A DNA stretch of 64,000 bases, from assembly GCA_013141505.1 (NCBI GenBank), contig JABFQX010000002.1:62001-126000 (forward strand), read 5' to 3'. Position numbers and translations under genes: made by a program. Below the pieces are notes generated by a model, which saw nothing but the letters and a program-made list of their open reading frames with translations, searched no databases and was not told the origin of the DNA. Below are positions 4,306-18,656 of the stretch, piece after piece (position 1 is the stretch's first letter; each line of letters starts with the position of its first letter). The stretch comes from Methyloglobulus sp. GTDB lineage: Bacteria > Pseudomonadota > Gammaproteobacteria > Methylococcales > Methylomonadaceae.

Positions 4306-4611
4306 TCAAATTTCACTGCTTTCCAACATTGGTACAATCCAATATTGAATCCCCGCTCCTGAAAACTCTTCCTGCAACCGCTTTAACAATAGTTTGGCAC
4401 CTTCTTCATCAATATGGATCTGGAAACAAATTTGTTTTTGGCGTCCAGTGACTTGCTCCGCCAGCGACAATCCTTTGTTTTCATGGTGATGCACATTGAC
4501 AGGAAAGCTACTAAAGCCGTGTTCAGATTCCAGGGTCAATAGGCAATCAACAACCGCTTCTTCAAGACTCGATGCGGTGTTGAGTATTACCAGACAATCT
4601 TTGCTCATCAT
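4306..4611 (-). CDS. DUF3240 family protein, last gene of metal-efflux operon
   Basis: A 101-residue cytoplasmic protein with no signal peptide. It resembles the DUF3240 family, which is commonly found beside CusA/CzcA pumps and has a PII-like ferredoxin fold (family knowledge, recalled not searched). It contains several His residues (EHGFSSFPVNVHHHENKG) and acidic patches that could bind metal. Its ATG overlaps the stop of the pump gene by 4 bases, so it is co-translated with it. A metal-sensing or pump-regulating role is an inference from position; no catalytic motif is visible. Confidence 0.75.
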   Translation of the reverse strand: MMSKDCLVILNTASSLEEAVVDCLLTLESEHGFSSFPVNVHHHENKGLSLAEQVTGRQKQICFQIHIDEEGAKLLLKRLQEEFSGAGIQYWIVPMLESSEI

Positions 4612-7600
4612 ACAAGCTCCTTGGCCTTACCAAATCGTTTAAACAGGATGGGCAATAAAAATAGGGTTAGGAAAGTAGACGATACCAATCCACCAATAAC
4701 CACTATTGCCAAGGGTCGCTGAATTTCTGAACCCGGACCGGTGGCGAACAACAAAGGGATCAAACCAAAAGCAGCAATGCTGGCGGTCATCATAACGGGT
4801 CGTAGCCGTCTGGCAGACCCGACCACCACAACCTTAGCGATGTCCATGCCAACCGCCAGCAGTTGATTAAAATAGCTGACCATTACCACGCCGTTGAGTA
4901 CGGCAATCCCTAGCAGCGCGATGAAGCCGACTGATGCAGGTACAGAAAGATATTCGCCCGACAGCCATAACGCAAATACTCCCCCGATCATAGCTAAGGG
5001 TATATTAGACAGCACCAATAATGCCTGTCGCACTGAGCCGAAGGTTGAAAACAGCAACAGAAAAATCAGCCCTAGCGATACCGGAATAACCAACGACAAA
5101 GTAGCCGCCGCACGTTGTTGGTTCTCAAACTGGCCACCAAATGCAACAGTATAGCCCGTGGGCAGTTTGACCTTATCGGCAACTGCCTTTTTGGCTTCAT
5201 CGACAAAACCGACCAAATCGCGGCCATCAACATTACTGCGAACCACTGTAAACCGCTGTCCACGTTCCCGACCTATAGAAACCAAGCCTTCCGTTTTGTG
5301 GACTTTGGCAACGGTTGTTATCGGCACATGGTTGCCATTCGGCAAGGTTAATTGCAGGTTCTCAAAATTGGCTACGGTACTATCGCCGCGCACTATCAAA
5401 GGCGTACGTTTTATCCCTTCTTGTACAATGCCGAGATTTAACCCTTCAATTTGTGCTCTCAAGAGATTTTCAATCGTATCGCCATCAAGGCCAAGACGAC
5501 CTGCCGCCGATCTGTCTATACTGACTTGCAGAAACTGCATTCCGCTATTCTGTTTAACAAACACATCGCTGGAGCCTTGGATATGCTTCAATATTTCAAC
5601 AATTTCATCGGCTTTTTTATTCAGTACCGCAAGATCAGGGCCAAATAGTTTAACCGCCAGATCACCTCGTGTTCCGGTCAGCATTTCGGAAACCCGCATT
5701 TCGATGGGCTGGGTAAAGCCAAAGGAAATTCCTGGCAATTGCTCCATGACCTTACGAATTTTCTCGATCAACGCTTCTTTTGATGCCACGCCCCATTCTT
5801 CTTTAGGTTTAAGTACCAAGAATGTATCGGTTTCATTAAGCCCCATTGGATCAAGCCCCAACTCATCAGAACCTACCCGTGCAACAACCGTCGTGATTTC
5901 TGGAATTTCCCTGAGCAACAATTTTTGTACTTGACCATCCAATGCAACCGACTGATCTAACGTAATCGACGGTAGTTTTTCGACTTGGACAATGATATCG
6001 CCTTCGTCCATCGTCGGCATGAAGGTGCTACCAATACGGGTAAATACCAAAGCGGTAACAATCAGCAATCCACCGGCAATCATGAAAATCTTTTTGCTAT
6101 TGTCCAGACACCACAACAAAGAAGGCTGATAGAGACTTAATAACTTACGCGGTAGCCAAGGTTCTTCATGGGTGACCTCCTTGAGTAGAAAGGATGCCAG
6201 AACGGGAATCACACTTAACGATAAAATCAGGGAGCCGCCCAACGCAAACACAATAGTCAGTGCTACGGGTGTAAATAATTTGCCTTCCAAACCTTGCAAG
6301 GTCAACAAGGGCAGAAACACGATGATGATGATCAAGATGCCCGATGTGACCGGCACGGCAACTTCGCGGGCGGCACGGTAAATCACATGCAAACGCGGCA
6401 AGCGCTCGGCTTTTTCCTTATGTGCCATATGAGTGATGATGTTTTCGACCACGACCACCGCCGCATCGACCAGCATACCAATCGCAATCGCCAAACCGCC
6501 CAGGCTCATCAAGTTTGCCGACATGCCAGCAAATTTCATCAGTATAAAAGTGACCATTGCCGCCATCGGTAATGCCAAGGCGACTGTCAGTGCGGCGCGT
6601 AAGTCGCCCAAAAATAAAATGAGCAAGATAACGACCAGTACGATGGCTTCCATGAGTGCATGGAATACGGTATCGACAGCTTTGTCCACGAGGTTGCCGC
6701 GATTGTAAAACACCTTTACTTTCACGCCTTCAGGAAAACTGGGGGTAATTTCTGCCAGCTTTTCTTCAATGCCGACGATGGTTTGCCTGGCATTGGCACC
6801 GCGAAGACTCAACACCAGGCCCGTCACCGCTTCGCCTTTGCCGTCTTTGCTGACCGCGCCATAGCGGGTTAACGCGCCTATCGACACATCAGCAACATCA
6901 CCAACCGTAATCGACATGCCTTGGTTGCTTTCGACCACAATGGCATTTACATCAGCCAATGTTTTAATACGGCCTTCGGCACGGACGATCAAAGCTTCAT
7001 CGCCCTCGGTCATGCGCCCTGCGCCGTCATTACGGTTATTTTTTTCCAGTACACTGATTAACTTGTCGATACCAATCCCACGCGCAGCCAAACGGGCGTT
7101 ATCGGGCATGACAACAAAACTTCTGACCATACCGCCCAATGAATTGACATCGGCCACACCTGGAACGGTCCTGAGTGCCGGACGGATAACCCAATCGAGC
7201 AAATCGCGCTTTTCCATCAGATTTAAGCCATCACCTTCGATGGAGAACATAAACATTTCTCCCAGCGGTGTGGTCATTGGCGCAATACCGCCTGATACAC
7301 CGGACGGCAAATTGCCCCACATGCCATTCAAGCGTTCGGCAATTTGCTGACGCGCCCAGTAAATATCGGTGCCTTCTTCAAAATCAACGGTGATGTCAGT
7401 CAACGCATATTTCGCAATCGAACGCAGCATGGTTTGGTGGGAAATGCCCAGTAGATCGACTTCGATAGGTGCAGTAATTCGAGCTTCCACCTCTTCCGGG
7501 GTCATACCGGGCGCTTTAACGATAATTTTTACCTGGGTGGGCGAAACTTCAGGAAAGGCGTCGATGGGGATATTTTTGAACGCATAATAACCACCGCCCG

Positions 7601-7667
7601 CCAGCAGGAACACAGCTAATAGAATGAGTATGCGCTGGCTGAGCGCAAATCGGATTAAGCCCCCCAT
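4608..7667 (-). CDS. CusA/CzcA family heavy-metal RND efflux pump
   Basis: A 1019-residue inner-membrane pump of the heavy-metal (HME) RND class. Family features are the N-terminal FALSQRILILLAVFLLAGG helix, IPIDAFPEVSPTQVKI, and the helix-4 motif AIGMLVDAAVVVVEN near residue 400. In HME pumps the DAA form of this motif goes with the Cu/Ag (CusA) group and the DGA form with divalent-cation pumps, so this one leans to monovalent copper or silver; the methionine relay was not verified. The C-terminal half repeats the fold and ends normally, so the gene is intact. It overlaps the adaptor stop by one base and DUF3240 by four, indicating one operon. Confidence 0.93.
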   Translation of the reverse strand: MGGLIRFALSQRILILLAVFLLAGGGYYAFKNIPIDAFPEVSPTQVKIIVKAPGMTPEEVEARITAPIEVDLLGISHQTMLRSIAKYALTDITVDFEEGTDIYWARQQIAERLNGMWGNLPSGVSGGIAPMTTPLGEMFMFSIEGDGLNLMEKRDLLDWVIRPALRTVPGVADVNSLGGMVRSFVVMPDNARLAARGIGIDKLISVLEKNNRNDGAGRMTEGDEALIVRAEGRIKTLADVNAIVVESNQGMSITVGDVADVSIGALTRYGAVSKDGKGEAVTGLVLSLRGANARQTIVGIEEKLAEITPSFPEGVKVKVFYNRGNLVDKAVDTVFHALMEAIVLVVILLILFLGDLRAALTVALALPMAAMVTFILMKFAGMSANLMSLGGLAIAIGMLVDAAVVVVENIITHMAHKEKAERLPRLHVIYRAAREVAVPVTSGILIIIIVFLPLLTLQGLEGKLFTPVALTIVFALGGSLILSLSVIPVLASFLLKEVTHEEPWLPRKLLSLYQPSLLWCLDNSKKIFMIAGGLLIVTALVFTRIGSTFMPTMDEGDIIVQVEKLPSITLDQSVALDGQVQKLLLREIPEITTVVARVGSDELGLDPMGLNETDTFLVLKPKEEWGVASKEALIEKIRKVMEQLPGISFGFTQPIEMRVSEMLTGTRGDLAVKLFGPDLAVLNKKADEIVEILKHIQGSSDVFVKQNSGMQFLQVSIDRSAAGRLGLDGDTIENLLRAQIEGLNLGIVQEGIKRTPLIVRGDSTVANFENLQLTLPNGNHVPITTVAKVHKTEGLVSIGRERGQRFTVVRSNVDGRDLVGFVDEAKKAVADKVKLPTGYTVAFGGQFENQQRAAATLSLVIPVSLGLIFLLLFSTFGSVRQALLVLSNIPLAMIGGVFALWLSGEYLSVPASVGFIALLGIAVLNGVVMVSYFNQLLAVGMDIAKVVVVGSARRLRPVMMTASIAAFGLIPLLFATGPGSEIQRPLAIVVIGGLVSSTFLTLFLLPILFKRFGKAKELV

Positions 7668-8776
7668 TATTCACTGCTCCCCAAACCCAGCATTGTGGCT
7701 TTGAGTGCTGCGGCATTGTTGATGGCAATGTCCTCAGTACCGGAAAAATGTCCGCTAATTACCGAGCCGTCAGCTTGTTTACCCAAAATAGTCACTTCGC
7801 GGGCCTTAAAACCGTCTTTATCCTTGATAAAAATGTAGGTTTTGCCGTCATTATGAGCAATGGCAACATTGGGTAATTTATAGGTGACAGCTTCGCTTGT
7901 TTGCATGTGCTGAATATTAACCTTTTGCCCGACCCGTATTGATGACGGGTTATTCCTGACAATTGCTCGTGCCAGGATAGTCTGATTTTCTGGATTCACA
8001 CTTTGTCCTAGCGCCTTGATTTCTGCTTCAACCAAACCATTTTCCACTTGGATTTTATCGCCAATTTTTATGTCGCTGATGTGTTCCTGGGGAATATTAA
8101 CTTCCAGCCAAAGCTCATCCAGATTGGCGATGCGGTAAAGCGGCGACATAGGATCAACATGCGTTCCTGAAATCGCCATACGCTCAATGACCCGACCCGC
8201 AATCGGTGACCTGATGCTGATCTGGCTGGTTAAACGACCCGTACTATCCAGTTGCTTAACTTCCTTAGCAGTCATTCCGGCAATTTGCAGCAGTTGCTTC
8301 GCTTCATTCACCTGAATTAAGGCTGCGCTATAAACGCTGAACGCTTCTTGTTCACCCCGACCGGAAATAACGCCCTCCTTGCGTAGTGTTTTATCTCGGT
8401 TGTAGGTGGCAGAAGCCAGCTTTAACGCGCCGACCGCTTTGAGGTAATTACTCTGTAACGTCAGTAAATCTGGGCTATTTATCAAACCCAGCAGCTCACC
8501 TTTTACAACCTTGTCGCCGACGGAAGCGTTCATTTTGAGAAGCAATCCCGCCTGCGAAGTGCTAACGATATATTCGTTTGCTGAAGGCACCACAACTTTG
8601 GCAGGAGCCGTAAACAACGGGATATGGCTGGTTGATTCCAACTTACCTATTTTTATGCCCAGATTATCTATCTGTTGTTGTGATATCTGGATTACATTGG
8701 TTTCTGCCCATGACTGTGTACTTAAAGCCATTAAGCCGAGCAGGGAAAGCACTAATCCGGTTATTTTATTGTTCAT
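7667..8776 (-). CDS. RND efflux periplasmic adaptor (CusB/CzcB-like)
   Basis: A 369-residue membrane-fusion protein bridging the pump and the outer-membrane channel. It has a cleavable signal peptide (GLMALSTQSWA at about residue 24), the two halves of the barrel-sandwich domain (AGLLLKMNASVGDKVVKGEL and SIRSPIAGRVIERMAISGTH), a helical hairpin between them, and a beta-barrel/membrane-proximal region. No Met/His-rich N-terminal metal domain like that of long CusB proteins is visible. It overlaps the TolC-type gene by 4 bases and touches the pump gene, consistent with a single tripartite system. Confidence 0.92.
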   Translation of the reverse strand: MNNKITGLVLSLLGLMALSTQSWAETNVIQISQQQIDNLGIKIGKLESTSHIPLFTAPAKVVVPSANEYIVSTSQAGLLLKMNASVGDKVVKGELLGLINSPDLLTLQSNYLKAVGALKLASATYNRDKTLRKEGVISGRGEQEAFSVYSAALIQVNEAKQLLQIAGMTAKEVKQLDSTGRLTSQISIRSPIAGRVIERMAISGTHVDPMSPLYRIANLDELWLEVNIPQEHISDIKIGDKIQVENGLVEAEIKALGQSVNPENQTILARAIVRNNPSSIRVGQKVNIQHMQTSEAVTYKLPNVAIAHNDGKTYIFIKDKDGFKAREVTILGKQADGSVISGHFSGTEDIAINNAAALKATMLGLGSSE

Positions 8777-10029
8777 GGCAAGACTCCTACCGCTTGGTTA
8801 TAAAACGCAATATCGCGTTGCAGCATAGTCGCACGTTCTTTGGCGCTTAAAATCGCTTGCTGTGTTCTGGATTCCACTTTTAGTAAGTCCATTAAATTAA
8901 TTTCACCGACCGAGAAACTCAGTTGCATCATGCTTAGATGTTGTTGGGCAATCCGTTTCAGTTCATTGGCAATTTCCAGTTCCGCTTCATTAACTTCCAG
9001 ATTATGTTCAGCTTCATGGTGGGCAAGCTCAAGACTCCGGTAGAGTTGTTCACGATCTGCAATCAGTCGATTGAGTTCTACATTAAGTGCAGCTATGTGG
9101 GGTTGAAGATGCTCAGAACCCCCAAAAGGGATATTAACGCCAATGTTAAAACTCTCGGTTTGATTGCTTCGCGGATCATTGTTTTGCGTCCGGTCACTAT
9201 TGATGCCAACAATGACATTGGTTTGCCCGGAACCGGTCAATTTAAGGGCTTTTAATTCCGCCTGTTTTCTTTCGATTTCACCATTAATCGCTACCAAATT
9301 AGGATGGTTAAGTTCCAGTTTTTTGATAGCCACCAATTTTTCCTGGTAAGCACCGGGAATTCGGCTTAATTGAGTGATGCTGGAGTAACGCTTGCGGGCG
9401 TGCATTAACTCAGCTTCTGCTTGAGTCAATACCGACAGTTTTTGTAATAACTCAGTTTGTGCCAGCAAGACGTCGGCACGGGGAAGATCGCCTAATTGCA
9501 CGCGGCGTTCAACTTTACCCAGTAATTTTTCAAAGATGTCTATTTCCGCACGGGCTTGCTCGTAGCGGATTTTTTGCAGCTCCATATCCCAAAGCGCACT
9601 TCTGACCAAACCGGCAATACGTAATCGAGTTGCCACAGATTGCAGGTTGGCGCTGTTTTCGGCTTTGCTACCACTGTCTTTTGCGGCATCACGCTGACCT
9701 AGATTCCACAACGGTACCTGTACCGTCGCATCGACATAATGCACTGTGCCACTGGTCATATTCTGATAACGAAGTCCGGCCTGGGATGCGCCTGCCGTCC
9801 AGCTTTCGCCCCTGTTGCGGAGTGCGACGGCCTCTTCTTCGAGTGCCGTAAGCCAAGCCATATCAGGAAATTTTTCCATAGTGAGGTCAATCACTTTGGG
9901 TAAGGTCAGCGATTTATCGACTTCTACAATATCTTCATGGGCAACGCTAGGTTTCAGGTCGGCAAATGCGACTGAAGTGATTAGGATTAGTCCAAGCATA
10001 ACCTTTAAAAAAGGTTTCAAAACAAACAT
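8773..10029 (-). CDS. TolC/CzcC family outer-membrane efflux channel
   Basis: A 418-residue exported protein with a signal peptide (MLGLILITSVAFA) and long amphipathic helices rich in Ala, Glu, Leu and Gln, typical of the coiled-coil barrel of TolC-family channels. The conserved end of the outer-membrane efflux repeat is seen in FSVGEINLMDLLKVESRTQQA near the C-terminus. Length fits CzcC/CusC proteins. It is the first large gene of the tripartite metal-efflux operon. No lipobox cysteine follows the signal peptide, unlike E. coli CusC. Confidence 0.9.
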   Translation of the reverse strand: MFVLKPFLKVMLGLILITSVAFADLKPSVAHEDIVEVDKSLTLPKVIDLTMEKFPDMAWLTALEEEAVALRNRGESWTAGASQAGLRYQNMTSGTVHYVDATVQVPLWNLGQRDAAKDSGSKAENSANLQSVATRLRIAGLVRSALWDMELQKIRYEQARAEIDIFEKLLGKVERRVQLGDLPRADVLLAQTELLQKLSVLTQAEAELMHARKRYSSITQLSRIPGAYQEKLVAIKKLELNHPNLVAINGEIERKQAELKALKLTGSGQTNVIVGINSDRTQNNDPRSNQTESFNIGVNIPFGGSEHLQPHIAALNVELNRLIADREQLYRSLELAHHEAEHNLEVNEAELEIANELKRIAQQHLSMMQLSFSVGEINLMDLLKVESRTQQAILSAKERATMLQRDIAFYNQAVGVLP

Positions 10030-10095
10030 ATAAGCTCATTGCGGCAAAACCGCGTTGTTAATCTAAAAAAATCCCTTGTGGATTTGAATGATAGC

Positions 10096-10494
10096 TTATT
10101 GAGCGGGAGGTGCGCGGGGGGAATGGGAAGCGAGATTAACGCGAGAATAGAACGGAAATAGATGTGGCGAAAAATTGCACTTAAATTCAGGTATTGCAGC
10201 TATTCGCGGCAAATCGGCTGGCGGCAAATAAAAATCATTGCCGGTATATTCAACAGATACGTCTTGGTAACTCCTGATACCGGCATCAATCATCACCAAC
10301 ATGCCTTCAGAATCCCTGTCAGCATTGACATTCTGCATAACAGGGGAATGCTGTTGCGTAGGATAGGCTTCAAGGCCGGGAATGTGTAAACCTTGGTTAA
10401 ACCGATTTGCACCGGTATGGGCATGGACTAATGGTGCAAAAAACTGCAACATTGCCAGCACAATAATCAACGATTTACTTAAATTAGGTAACAT
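10096..10494 (-). CDS. small exported protein leading the metal-efflux operon
   Basis: A 132-residue protein of unknown function with a clear signal peptide (LIIVLAMLQFFAPLVHA) and a mature chain starting near HTGANRFNQG. It is probably periplasmic; a single Cys and scattered His and Met residues are present, and the tail is Pro-rich (SHSPRAPPAQ). It lies 66 bases upstream of the TolC-type gene on the same strand, so it is likely the first gene of the efflux operon. Small periplasmic proteins often lead Cus/Czc operons as metal-binding factors, which is the only basis for guessing a role. No recognised domain. Confidence 0.6.
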   Translation of the reverse strand: MLPNLSKSLIIVLAMLQFFAPLVHAHTGANRFNQGLHIPGLEAYPTQQHSPVMQNVNADRDSEGMLVMIDAGIRSYQDVSVEYTGNDFYLPPADLPRIAAIPEFKCNFSPHLFPFYSRVNLASHSPRAPPAQ

Positions 10495-15074: not shown

Positions 15075-15665
15075 ATGAACACATCACAATTATTTAAACA
15101 GATCTCCCTAGGAATTTTAACAGTTGTTTTTTCCGTATCCGTTTGGGCGCATGGAGGCGCAAAGGGAACAGACACAGACCAATGTAAATTTGAACTTGAA
15201 CCAGACCACTGGATACATTACACCGCTTATCAACCCAATGCTTTTCCAGCAGAGGAGTTTTGTGCTAGTCTGCCACGGGAAAAGGAATCAACCATTTTAG
15301 TGTTTGATTATCAAGACCAAAAATATAAGAACGACACCGTTGAATTCGAGGTTACCAAGGAACCTGAAGGAACCCGTGTATTTTTTCTGGAAGGCGCAAA
15401 ACATAAAAAAGGTACCGTTGAACTAAAGTTGCCAAACGGCGTGCCAGAGGTTGGCAAATATCTTATTCACATCACGCTGGTACCTGATCAAGGCGAAAGA
15501 AAAGATGTCCACATGAGCTTCAAAGCCGGTGGCGGCCCAGCTGCGTCCAATAGCACTATGTTCTTGTACCTGCTGTTTATAGGTGGCGGGCTTTACGTGT
15601 TTTATTTGTCAAACGCTGCTTTCAGAAATACGGTTGATAAATTTATTGGTAAGGCTAAAGCCTGA
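15075..15665 (+). CDS. anchored exported protein with predicted N-terminal histidine
   Basis: A 196-residue protein of unknown family. A signal peptide ends in VFSVSVWA, and predicted cleavage leaves a mature chain starting HGGAKGTD. The roughly 135-residue extracytoplasmic part has two Cys (in DQCKFELEP and EEFCASLP), several His (DHWIHYTAY) and beta-strand-like patterning. A C-terminal hydrophobic helix (FLYLLFIGGGLYVFYL) and short basic tail anchor it. A free N-terminal His is the hallmark of histidine-brace copper proteins, and PmoB also starts its mature chain with His-Gly; the parallel is suggestive only. It lies 92 bases upstream of an anchored cupredoxin on the same strand. The ATG was preferred over an upstream GTG because of the better Shine-Dalgarno spacing. 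Confidence 0.75.
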   Translation: MNTSQLFKQISLGILTVVFSVSVWAHGGAKGTDTDQCKFELEPDHWIHYTAYQPNAFPAEEFCASLPREKESTILVFDYQDQKYKNDTVEFEVTKEPEGTRVFFLEGAKHKKGTVELKLPNGVPEVGKYLIHITLVPDQGERKDVHMSFKAGGGPAASNSTMFLYLLFIGGGLYVFYLSNAAFRNTVDKFIGKAKA

Positions 15666-15757
15666 TTTTTTGTAATTCAGCAAGTCCGGTGTGGGTAGTA
15701 AGTCTAACAAAAAGTTTGTGCCAACCCTGAATCAAGGTAGCAAGAGGTTTAAGAGCA

Positions 15758-16681
15758 ATGATGAAGTTATTGATGGTTGGTTTATTAGGTAGCGTATTCT
15801 CGACCGCTTTGGTGGCAGAGGAGATAGAAGACCACACCAAGTTGCTCATGGATCACGGGGATGGTCACTTAATGGAAATGTCCGGCGGCATGGTAATGGG
15901 TCAGAACACTGACAAATTACCGGGCGGCTGTGACAAGATTTCCGAGACCAAAGAAGTGACCGTCCATGCCGGACATAAGTTTGCCGAAAAGTTTCCGGGG
16001 CGGATGTTTGCGTTTGACACTCAGGAATTCAATTTTGAGCCCTGTGCAAAAGTAACCGTTCACTTCATCAATGAAGACAAAATCCGTCATCAATGGATGA
16101 TGCACGGCTTGCCTAAGTATCTGTACCCCAAAGGTATGTTTCATCTTGAAGTGTCCGGGCCAGGAAAGATTTCCGGCACCTTTATCCTGCCGCCGGGCGA
16201 CAAAACCTATCTGGTTCATTGCGACATAGCGCAGCACATGGAAAAAGGCATGAAAGCGCAATTGAAAGTCGGCGATGGCGATGGTGATCTGCCAAGCATT
16301 CCTGGCGTGACAGCGCTTACTTATCCCGATGACTATAATGCCGGCCCTGAGCAAATGGCTGCGGCGGCAAAAATTACCGCAGCAGAGGTAGCTACAGCTA
16401 GCGAGACCCTGGCTAAGCAAGAAGCGGATGCCAAAGCCGGAAAAAAACCGCCACCGCCTACAAGCGACTCTTTTGTTTCCGGTACGACTGTCATCGGTTT
16501 GGCAATTGGTTTTGCCCTTGCACCGTTTCTAGGTCGAAAATTTCAGGGCAAGAACGCTGCTGAAGTGACCGCATACTGCTTTGACGTATTAAGGGTACTG
16601 ATTCAGTTTATAAAAAGTTTGATTGTACGTTTGCTTAACTTACTTTCATCTTCTAAAAACAAAACCTTACCAAGTAAGTAA
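15758..16681 (+). CDS. membrane-anchored cupredoxin-domain protein
   Basis: A 307-residue exported copper-type protein. After a signal peptide (LLGSVFSTALVA) comes a His/Met-rich stretch (residues 26-50, with DHGDGHLMEMSGGMVMG) suited to extra copper binding. The cupredoxin domain supplies a full type-1 set: His111 (IRHQWMMHG), then Cys155, His160 and Met165 in HCDIAQHMEKGM. An Ala/Lys/Pro linker leads to a hydrophobic segment near residue 240 (IGLAIGFALAPFLG) and a second one near the C-terminus. It follows the histidine-started anchored protein and is closed by a strong terminator, so the two probably form a unit. Electron transfer or copper delivery at the membrane is likely; the partner is unknown. 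Confidence 0.85.
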   Translation: MMKLLMVGLLGSVFSTALVAEEIEDHTKLLMDHGDGHLMEMSGGMVMGQNTDKLPGGCDKISETKEVTVHAGHKFAEKFPGRMFAFDTQEFNFEPCAKVTVHFINEDKIRHQWMMHGLPKYLYPKGMFHLEVSGPGKISGTFILPPGDKTYLVHCDIAQHMEKGMKAQLKVGDGDGDLPSIPGVTALTYPDDYNAGPEQMAAAAKITAAEVATASETLAKQEADAKAGKKPPPPTSDSFVSGTTVIGLAIGFALAPFLGRKFQGKNAAEVTAYCFDVLRVLIQFIKSLIVRLLNLLSSSKNKTLPSK

Positions 16682-16696
16682 AAATAGCAATATATA

Positions 16697-16730
16697 AAAA
16701 GCCCTGCAATTTTTTGCGGGGCTTTTTTTT
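16697..16730 (+). terminator. rho-independent terminator after cupredoxin gene
   Basis: The stem AAAAGCCCTGCAA / TTGCGGGGCTTTT with a short T-rich loop is followed by a run of T. It starts about 15 bases after the cupredoxin stop, closing the two-gene unit and separating it from the membrane protein downstream. Confidence 0.9.
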
Positions 16731-16758
16731 GTTGTCATAAAACTACAACACATAAGTT

Positions 16759-17169
16759 ATGACTCTCTGGGAATTGTTCTTAAGCGCCTTCATATCATCT
16801 ACTATTGCACCGGGTGGTTCTGAAGCTGTTTTGGCTTACATGGCATCGACCGGAAACCACAAGATCGACCATTTGCTCATTGCCGCGACCACGGGCAACA
16901 CACTGGGGGCTATGACCACCTGGGGGTTGGGCGTATTGGCGGCAAAAAAATTTCCTGTTGCGTCCCTGTTATCGGCAAAACAGCAAAAAGCACTGATTAC
17001 GGTGAGAAGCAAAGGATTATGGGTGCTATTTTTCTCGTGGTTGCCTGTTGTCGGCGATGCTTTATGTTTTGCGGCAGGCTGGTTAAAATTACCCTTGTTG
17101 TCCGGTTTTTTAGTCATAATGGTAGGCAAATTATGTCGATATGCGTTTATTGTATGGTTTTTTATTTAA
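16759..17169 (+). CDS. YqaA/DedA-like small membrane protein
   Basis: A 136-residue integral membrane protein with about four hydrophobic segments. The early helix FISSTIAPGGSEAVLAYMAS, then TTGNTLGAMTTWGLG and FSWLPVVGDALCFAAGWLKL resemble the YqaA subgroup of the VTT (DedA-like) family. These proteins are implicated in membrane homeostasis or lipid/ion transport; no specific function can be assigned. It lies after the cupredoxin terminator and 55 bases before another membrane protein on the same strand. Confidence 0.78.
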   Translation: MTLWELFLSAFISSTIAPGGSEAVLAYMASTGNHKIDHLLIAATTGNTLGAMTTWGLGVLAAKKFPVASLLSAKQQKALITVRSKGLWVLFFSWLPVVGDALCFAAGWLKLPLLSGFLVIMVGKLCRYAFIVWFFI

Positions 17170-17224: not shown

Positions 17225-18010
17225 GTGCTACGCCACTTCCCACAAATTAACCATAACTATAGCCATCATAAGCGGGACTATTTTATCGCCGTATTCACCT
17301 TTGTGTGTGTGGCTATTTGCCTGTTGACAGATGCACATGCCCCGATGGAAAAGCAAAACGCCTTGGGAGTGTGTGGATGGGTCTTCCTGTTTGGCTTGTT
17401 GCTGGGTGAAAAAATTGATGTCAGGGTTCAGGTGGGCATAGCCGTCATTTTTGCAACGATAGGCGAGCATTTCGCTTCACCCTACATGGGCGGGTACACC
17501 TATCGGTTTCATAACGTACCAGCGTACGTGCCGCCGGGGCATGGGATGGTTTATTTAACTGCTGTGGCTTTGGCAAGGTCGGGATTTTTTATGACCTACG
17601 CAAGACAAATTGCGACATTTGTCGTATCAGTCTGCGGGATTTGGTCACTCTGGGGCATCAGCGGCATTCCAGACCAAGGCGATGCTGTTGGTGCGTTGCT
17701 GTTTTGTGTATTTCTGGCTTATCTTTTTAAAGGGCGTTCCCCCATGGTGTATCTTGCCGCTTTTTTTATAACCACGTGGCTGGAACTCATTGGCACAGCG
17801 GTAGGCACCTGGAAATGGGCTGCCATTGATCCTGTGTTGGGCTGGACTCAAGGTAATCCCCCCAGTGGTGTTGCGGCTTGGTACTGCCTAGTTGATGCCG
17901 TTGCTTTAGGTGGTTCCGCAATAGTGATGAGCACTGTAAAATGCATCCAGGACGGGCTAAATACAGCAAAATCCAGAAAAAATACCTTTCAAAGTGCTGA
18001 AAGCGAGTAG
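17225..18010 (+). CDS. polytopic membrane protein of unknown function
   Basis: A 261-residue protein with roughly seven hydrophobic segments, read from GTG with AAAGGA upstream. Visible features are a His-rich N-terminus (INHNYSHHKRDYF), helices such as YFIAVFTFVCVAICLLT and GVCGWVFLFGLLLGE, a conserved-looking polar loop (YMGGYTYRFHNVPAYVPPGH) and a late motif TWKWAAIDPVLGWTQGNPPSG. The polar loops and in-membrane His/Trp suggest an enzyme or channel rather than a simple anchor. I do not recognise the family. It lies between the YqaA-like gene and the superoxide reductase gene. Confidence 0.7.
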   Translation: MLRHFPQINHNYSHHKRDYFIAVFTFVCVAICLLTDAHAPMEKQNALGVCGWVFLFGLLLGEKIDVRVQVGIAVIFATIGEHFASPYMGGYTYRFHNVPAYVPPGHGMVYLTAVALARSGFFMTYARQIATFVVSVCGIWSLWGISGIPDQGDAVGALLFCVFLAYLFKGRSPMVYLAAFFITTWLELIGTAVGTWKWAAIDPVLGWTQGNPPSGVAAWYCLVDAVALGGSAIVMSTVKCIQDGLNTAKSRKNTFQSAESE

Positions 18011-18230: not shown

Positions 18231-18656
18231 ATGGAACGTCGTAATTTTATCGGTTTAAGTTTAGCCAGTATAGGAACAGCCCTGGTCACGCCAGAATTGG
18301 CCTTGGCAAAAAATGTACCTGCATCACCGGTTAGCGACATCTATTACACTAAAGAATCGCCTGGCCGCTGGAAAGAGAAAGTTGCAGGGCATTTACCCAG
18401 TATCGGCATAGAAAAGACCGGATCTAAAATTACTATAAGGGTGGTGACTTCGCACGAGATGAAAGGTTTCGAGCACTATATCGTCAAACATGTGTTGCTG
18501 GATCAGAACTATAAATTTCTGGACGAACACTTGTTTAATCCAGACAAAGACAAAGCGGCCATATCCACTTTTACGCTTGATAACTACAGTGGCGCTGTTT
18601 ACGCCTTGAGCATGTGCAATAAACACGACCTTTGGCTAAATACTGCGACTGTATAG
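18231..18656 (+). CDS. Tat-exported superoxide reductase (neelaredoxin-like)
   Basis: A 141-residue protein with a twin-arginine type leader (ERRNFIGLS, cleavage after PELALA), so it is probably exported folded. The mature part carries the expected ligand set of the superoxide reductase iron centre: His54 (AGHLPSIG), His75 (SHEM), His82 (EHYI), then Cys129 and His132 in MCNKHDLW. The Cys-x-x-His spacing matches desulfoferrodoxin/neelaredoxin proteins, which reduce superoxide to peroxide at a His4Cys iron site. There is no N-terminal desulforedoxin domain. A periplasmic enzyme of this type is unusual in an apparent aerobe. It has its own leader, 220 bases after the membrane-protein gene. Confidence 0.82.
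   Translation: MERRNFIGLSLASIGTALVTPELALAKNVPASPVSDIYYTKESPGRWKEKVAGHLPSIGIEKTGSKITIRVVTSHEMKGFEHYIVKHVLLDQNYKFLDEHLFNPDKDKAAISTFTLDNYSGAVYALSMCNKHDLWLNTATV

Follow-up and report, generated by a model that had tools for sequence, protein, structure and literature searches.

The window analysed here is a stretch of 64,000 nucleotides from Methyloglobulus sp. (contig JABFQX010000002.1), whose numbering is used throughout. On its + strand lie two consecutive genes, the open reading frames ORF1 (15075-15665; 196 amino acids from the ATG at 15075, with a GTG in frame 12 bases upstream) and ORF2 (15758-16681; 307 amino acids), which encode a protein of the PmoD/AmoD family and a membrane-anchored type-1 cupredoxin, respectively. 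We regard this pair, with moderate confidence, as a conserved copper module of the periplasm, reduced here to two genes, that serves copper membrane monooxygenases (CuMMOs), i.e., the particulate methane monooxygenase (pMMO) and its relatives, with copper loading or maintenance as a role ahead of pure electron donation; family, topology, conservation, gene order and co-occurrence were read from sequence, and the role is deduced from them. The features of the locus are as follows:

15075..15665, + strand: pmoD-family gene (ORF1), encoding a signal peptide (residues 1-25), His26, a PmoD-type cupredoxin domain, Cys37/Cys63 and a C-terminal transmembrane helix.
15150..15152, + strand: codon of His26, the predicted first mature residue (-3/-1 rule and conservation).
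15183..15263, + strand: core motif from Cys37 to Cys63, including His45 and His48 (alignment with 6CPD, order-wide alignment and motif classes of PMC6189053).
15666..15757, + strand: intergenic gap of 92 bp, the place of a two-domain multicopper oxidase gene in other genera.
15758..16681, + strand: membrane-anchored cupredoxin gene (ORF2; ligand alignment, Pfam Cu-oxidase_2 and fold neighbours).
16696..16727, + strand: intrinsic terminator (terminator scan).
16759..17169, + strand: gene for a small VTT/DedA-like protein, predicted to be a membrane protein, the recurrent next neighbour in several families.

A preliminary description, made from the sequence alone, had proposed that both proteins are exported and anchored by C-terminal helices and that a strong terminator closes the unit. 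Both proposals agree with the present analysis: ORF1 has a hydrophobic N-terminus, C-terminal hydrophobic stretches are present in ORF1 (around residues 161-179; a helix at 135-154 of the mature chain in the model) and in ORF2 (around 240-258 and 277-295), and the terminator, a 14-pair stem followed by T's, is the top candidate of six in the scan (2.5 expected); between ORF1 and ORF2, none was detected on the + strand. The type-1 copper site that the preliminary description gave for ORF2 is likewise complete, and the His/Met-rich N-terminal stretch is present. Its statement that the pair belongs to no known copper system has to be abandoned, as ORF1 is a PmoD/AmoD protein and the location of pmoD next to a multicopper oxidase gene is already known from Methylococcus capsulatus (MCA2130; PMC6688271).

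The assignment of ORF1 to the PmoD/AmoD family is based on sequence profiles and on a fold model. A phmmer search of solved structures with the single sequence retrieved PmoD (6CPD; E 0.0015), a profile of 14 family relatives retrieved the same entry at E 3.7e-7, and an order-wide profile did so at E 1.4e-23 with no other match below 0.01. The AlphaFold2 model of mature ORF1 (predicted local distance difference test score, pLDDT, 83) superimposes on 6CPD with a Z score of 15.8 (VIA-align; root-mean-square deviation 2.0 over 115 residues), the runner-up entry having a Z score of 9.4. ORF1 shares with PmoD, AmoD and AmoE (PMC6189053) the signal peptide, the cupredoxin domain, the two invariant cysteines (Cys37 and Cys63), the C-terminal helix and a near-exclusive occurrence in genomes with CuMMOs. 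On two of the plasmids inspected, the PmoD homologue adjoins amoC/pmoC. Identities as CopC, lytic polysaccharide monooxygenases (LPMOs), PCuAC or CopA were considered and gave no convincing match to those families.

The core of ORF1 aligns with the segment of PmoD that contains Cys41, Met49, His51 and Cys65. His48 of ORF1 falls on His51, a ligand of the CuA site of PmoD, and Trp46 falls on Met49, another of its ligands. The spacing between Cys37 and His48 (Cx10H) is one residue longer than the Cx9H of most other Methylococcales PmoDs, and ORF1 lacks the Cx7MxH spacing, with its Met and His ligands, of the CuA-forming subclass (Cx7MxHxnC). The CuA site forms only in Cx7MxH PmoDs, while a Cx9H PmoD binds copper without it (PMC6189053). 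Since Trp occupies the position of Met49 and the spacing is Cx10H, a CuA site of the published type is not expected from the sequence of ORF1.

The hydrophobic N-terminus of ORF1 ends in V-W-A followed by H26-G-G, and the -3/-1 rule places the predicted cleavage after a 25-residue signal, directly before His26. Signal peptidase I prefers Ala at position -1 and Ala, Leu, Val or Ile at position -3. Among 38 PmoD sequences, which cover many families and include copies on plasmids of Methylosinus, Nitrosomonas and Methylomonas, position -1 is Ala in 34 and position -3 is Ala, Leu, Val or Ile in 37, the predicted first mature residue being His in 33, Asp in four and Gln in one. In the family of ORF1, a variable signal gives way abruptly to an invariant block that starts at W24-A25-H26. 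The mature N-terminal histidine of the preliminary description therefore stands as a prediction, and its conservation holds for the close relatives of ORF1, in which His26, His45 and His48 are all invariant (61/61), but not for the whole PmoD family: the four Asp-start proteins, which are related paralogues, have also lost His48, replaced by Met in 4/4, whereas 14 of the 17 His-start proteins of the order-wide alignment keep it. This covariation in the aligned sequences hints at a joint site. Paralogues at loci L227 (7947-8573), L228 (4545-6045) and L223 (7744-8358) have a predicted mature start ADGGGGGG instead of AHGG, and Met at the His48 position.

The first approximately nine mature residues are disordered in the ORF1 model (mean pLDDT 44). 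The preliminary description had asked for a second histidine within reach of His26; His48 lies in a hairpin beside Cys37, which is 11 residues past His26, so that, for a putative brace, this histidine would not be out of reach. All PmoD constructs of PMC6189053 had two additional vector-derived residues (Ser-Met) at the N-terminus, and the native N-terminal amine and histidine were thus outside the scope of that work, whose main text contains no discussion of the N-terminal His. PmoD is mentioned neither in a 2025 survey of N-terminal-His metalloproteins (PMC12537917) nor in a review of the histidine brace (PMC10952591). ORF1 resembles the histidine-brace proteins (LPMO, CopC, PmoB and PCuAC/PmoF1) in having a His as predicted first mature residue and another His close by in the sequence, and differs from them in belonging to another fold family.

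From its sequence, ORF2 is a single-domain type-1 cupredoxin and not a multicopper oxidase: it has one cupredoxin domain, and HCD where HCH would be expected in the latter. The type-1 ligands His111, Cys155, His160 and Met165 are invariant in 17 sequences across Methylococcales, as are Met114, His116, His129, His154 and the pair Cys58/Cys96, and three methionines (Met39, Met45 and Met47) of the His/Met-rich segment (residues 26-47) are invariant across the order. In copper nitrite reductase, an H-x4-H spacing (H111/H116 in ORF2) and a His-Cys pair (H154-C155 in ORF2) carry the type-1 and two type-2 ligands; the second, invariant set of His and Met residues of ORF2 resembles that pattern and may also bind copper. 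ORF2 has the type-1 ligands, H111/H116 (H-x4-H) and H154/C155 in common with the domains of copper nitrite reductases and two-domain multicopper oxidases; unlike them, it is a single membrane-anchored domain with a His/Met-rich tail and no second domain completing a type-2 or trinuclear site. Pfam Cu-oxidase_2 matches ORF2 at 22.4 bits (cut-off 20.4) and covers residues 146-174 only, and sequence searches of solved structures gave no convincing match. The folds nearest to it, at Z scores of 8-9, are those of auracyanin and copper nitrite reductases, a supporting argument only, because the confidence of the model is modest (pLDDT 67). Profile-profile comparison of the cupredoxin with the multicopper oxidase encoded in its operon gave no confident relation, and a direct derivation of one from the other is not claimed. 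At another locus (L262, 5806-6807), a homologue of the cupredoxin adjoins nitric oxide reductase-like genes and carries an N-terminal extension of roughly 90 residues that is extremely rich in His, Met and Asp.

The genes for pmoD and the cupredoxin are adjacent, or one oxidase gene apart, in 19 of the 20 family loci read. A second pmoD-cupredoxin pair (L006; 78% and 70% identity) is present on another contig of the same genome, and with the 19 loci it puts the pairing far beyond chance. The two genes are direct neighbours in 13 of the 19 fully read family loci with both genes; in the remaining six, a two-domain multicopper oxidase of about 575 amino acids separates them, the genes overlapping slightly or standing a short distance apart. 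Outside the family, the three-gene form pmoD-multicopper oxidase-cupredoxin was found at 14 loci of families f3 to f8 of Methylococcales (the cupredoxin positions in L223, L229 and L231 come from a search separate from the locus readings); the trio order is seen in families f1 and f3 to f8, and in f2 the genes are split or at a contig end. The oxidase of the trio has a HCH type-1 motif in domain 1, HDH in domain 2 and a DGDGDPD loop; a C-terminal helix of its own is present in most families. As the three-gene form is spread across the families of the order, the ancestral unit is best read from these gene orders as pmoD-two-domain multicopper oxidase-cupredoxin, and the pair in the window as a reduced form that lost the oxidase gene from the locus.

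The survey of gene neighbourhoods, in which pair or trio recurs across Methylococcales, supports the link to a copper membrane enzyme that had been raised as a possibility from the sequence. The trio lies within the copper monooxygenase operon in three families, as pmoC-pmoA-pmoB-pmoD-oxidase-cupredoxin on one strand in f8 (L225, L226) and as pmoA-pmoB-pmoD-oxidase-cupredoxin in f18 (L257) and f145 (L260), and in f2 (L235) an oxidase-cupredoxin pair is located about 5 kb or less from pmoC. In genome G548, the monooxygenase genes C-A-B are followed by D-copC-copD, probably an ammonia-oxidiser-like arrangement, and an oxidase-cupredoxin pair neighbours genes that resemble nitric oxide reductase. 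Of 369 gammaproteobacterial genomes, sampled evenly, 12 have the cupredoxin, 11 have PmoB and 10 have both; the Fisher p value of 6e-17 overstates the independent evidence, because the sampled genomes are related. In family f7, PmoB occurs in 13/13 genomes with the cupredoxin and in 0/5 without it. The exceptions to the co-occurrence are G271 and G439, described below, and G485, which is a weak match only. Phylum-wide sampling gave only weak matches in large oxidase-sized frames, and alphaproteobacterial methanotrophs may have been missed in it.

The second pair of the same genome (L006, contig C6 of G000, 15374-17007) is located where its contig ends, with several genes for TonB-dependent receptors upstream of it, and adjoins a transposase-like fragment; this setting perhaps relates to the uptake of copper or of a chelator. 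The same genome has an oxidase-cupredoxin pair without pmoD (L007, 7238-9627) with a shorter cupredoxin of 225 amino acids, and short second cupredoxin matches like this one occur in many genomes of the family. In most family genomes, the locus is flanked by the same divergent gene of 545-580 amino acids (glucose-6-phosphate isomerase-like by eye) and by the small VTT-type membrane gene. A 261-amino-acid membrane protein without Pfam match (17225-18010 in the window) adjoins the unit in most family loci, and an exported desulfoferrodoxin-like protein with a superoxide reductase domain (18231-18656) is a recurrent neighbour in several family genomes. On the - strand, at 4608-10494, the window contains a heavy-metal efflux set of the resistance-nodulation-division (RND) type, of Cus/Czc type by similarity (inner pump, adaptor and outer-membrane channel); a small gene of DUF2946-like type precedes the set.

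Because the parent cluster almost always accompanies copper monooxygenases, the pair probably helps to load or run them. The C-terminal helices would keep both proteins in the neighbourhood of pMMO, on the periplasmic side of the cytoplasmic membrane. Copper could be bound by the His/Met-rich tail of the cupredoxin and by the N-terminal His, His48 and Cys site of PmoD, and the redox-active type-1 site, together with the multicopper oxidase in those loci that have one, might set the oxidation state of copper or pass electrons, the outcome being copper delivered to the monooxygenase and kept in it. Three points speak for loading or maintenance: the His/Met-rich tail, the copper ligands of PmoD and the trio beside cytochrome oxidase described below. 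In Methylosinus trichosporium, deletion of the operon pmoD causes a growth defect only with copper (PMC6189053), and expression of MCA2130, the pmoD beside a multicopper oxidase gene in M. capsulatus, is lower without copper (PMC6688271).

Besides the relatedness of the sampled genomes, several observations weigh against this reading. The pair in the window is not near pmoCAB, and the multicopper oxidase is missing from the locus in its genus. Genome G439 has PmoB, PmoD, CopC and CopD and lacks the cupredoxin. Genome G271, closed in a single contig (loci L261/L271), lacks PmoB, and its trio immediately follows the operon of a cytochrome c oxidase; the module may therefore serve a client other than a monooxygenase. 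Finally, the intact type-1 site favours electron transfer, and the data do not decide between loading and transfer.

A possible, less probable explanation is that of an electron relay, in which the cupredoxin is reduced by the respiratory chain, or else by the multicopper oxidase and PmoD, and in turn passes the electrons to pMMO. The type-1 ligand set is complete and invariant, the fold neighbours include electron carriers such as auracyanin, the cupredoxin is found in operons with CuMMO subunits, and a role in electron delivery has been proposed for PmoD (PMC6189053); however, a relay has no need of a His/Met-rich copper-binding tail, the trio of G271 stands beside a cytochrome oxidase in a genome without monooxygenase, and PmoD in the window lacks the Met ligand of CuA. 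It is improbable that the system confers copper tolerance, with PmoD and the cupredoxin sequestering or oxidising surplus periplasmic copper like Cop/Cue systems. The multicopper oxidase partner in most families and the RND efflux genes about 5 kb away would fit such a function, but the cupredoxin is nearly confined to CuMMO-bearing genomes in the samples searched, has no match among 72,556 plasmids, and the pmoD deletion mutant of M. trichosporium fails in ordinary copper-replete growth on pMMO (PMC6189053). That ORF1 is a stand-alone histidine-brace protein of LPMO or CopC type, unrelated to PmoD, as its conserved mature N-terminal His might suggest, is already contradicted by profile and fold, which both place it in PmoD, and by the lack of a match to either family.

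Within the proposed copper module serving monooxygenases, we tentatively suggest, as a rather unlikely extension, that native PmoD has an N-terminal-His copper site, hidden from published work by the two vector-derived residues of all constructs studied. With His48, and possibly with the half type-2 pair His116/His154 of the partner cupredoxin, this site would make up a common centre for copper transfer or redox chemistry, completing or feeding the copper monooxygenase.

Compared with known systems, ORF1 differs from the CuA-type PmoD by the Trp and the longer spacing described above, and from the PmoD of PMC6189053 by its partner, a cupredoxin rather than pmoCAB or copC. The adjacency of pmoD and oxidase at the MCA2130 locus fits the order of the trio; in contrast to that locus, the window has no oxidase between the genes, and the cupredoxin is unmentioned in PMC6688271. 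In the openly accessible papers searched, we found no account of a cupredoxin partner, an order-wide three-gene operon, co-occurrence with PmoB or the N-terminal His, and the cupredoxin partner of PmoD is apparently undescribed. Methylomonas DH-1 has been used as a strain whose pmo operon lacks pmoD (PMC8764830); sampled Methylomonas records (L153, L156, L166) carry the pmoD-cupredoxin pair elsewhere in the genome, which bears on the controls of that experiment.

The conserved N-terminal His suggests that metal binding by PmoD be re-studied with the native N-terminus. On purification, most of the activity of methane and ammonia monooxygenases is lost, and it has long been suspected that an accessory component is missing, for which PmoD is the leading candidate. 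The cupredoxin is a concrete second component to add back: its distribution follows that of the copper monooxygenase in nearly every genome, several lineages encode it in the monooxygenase operon, and it remains next to pmoD even at loci that have lost the oxidase gene.
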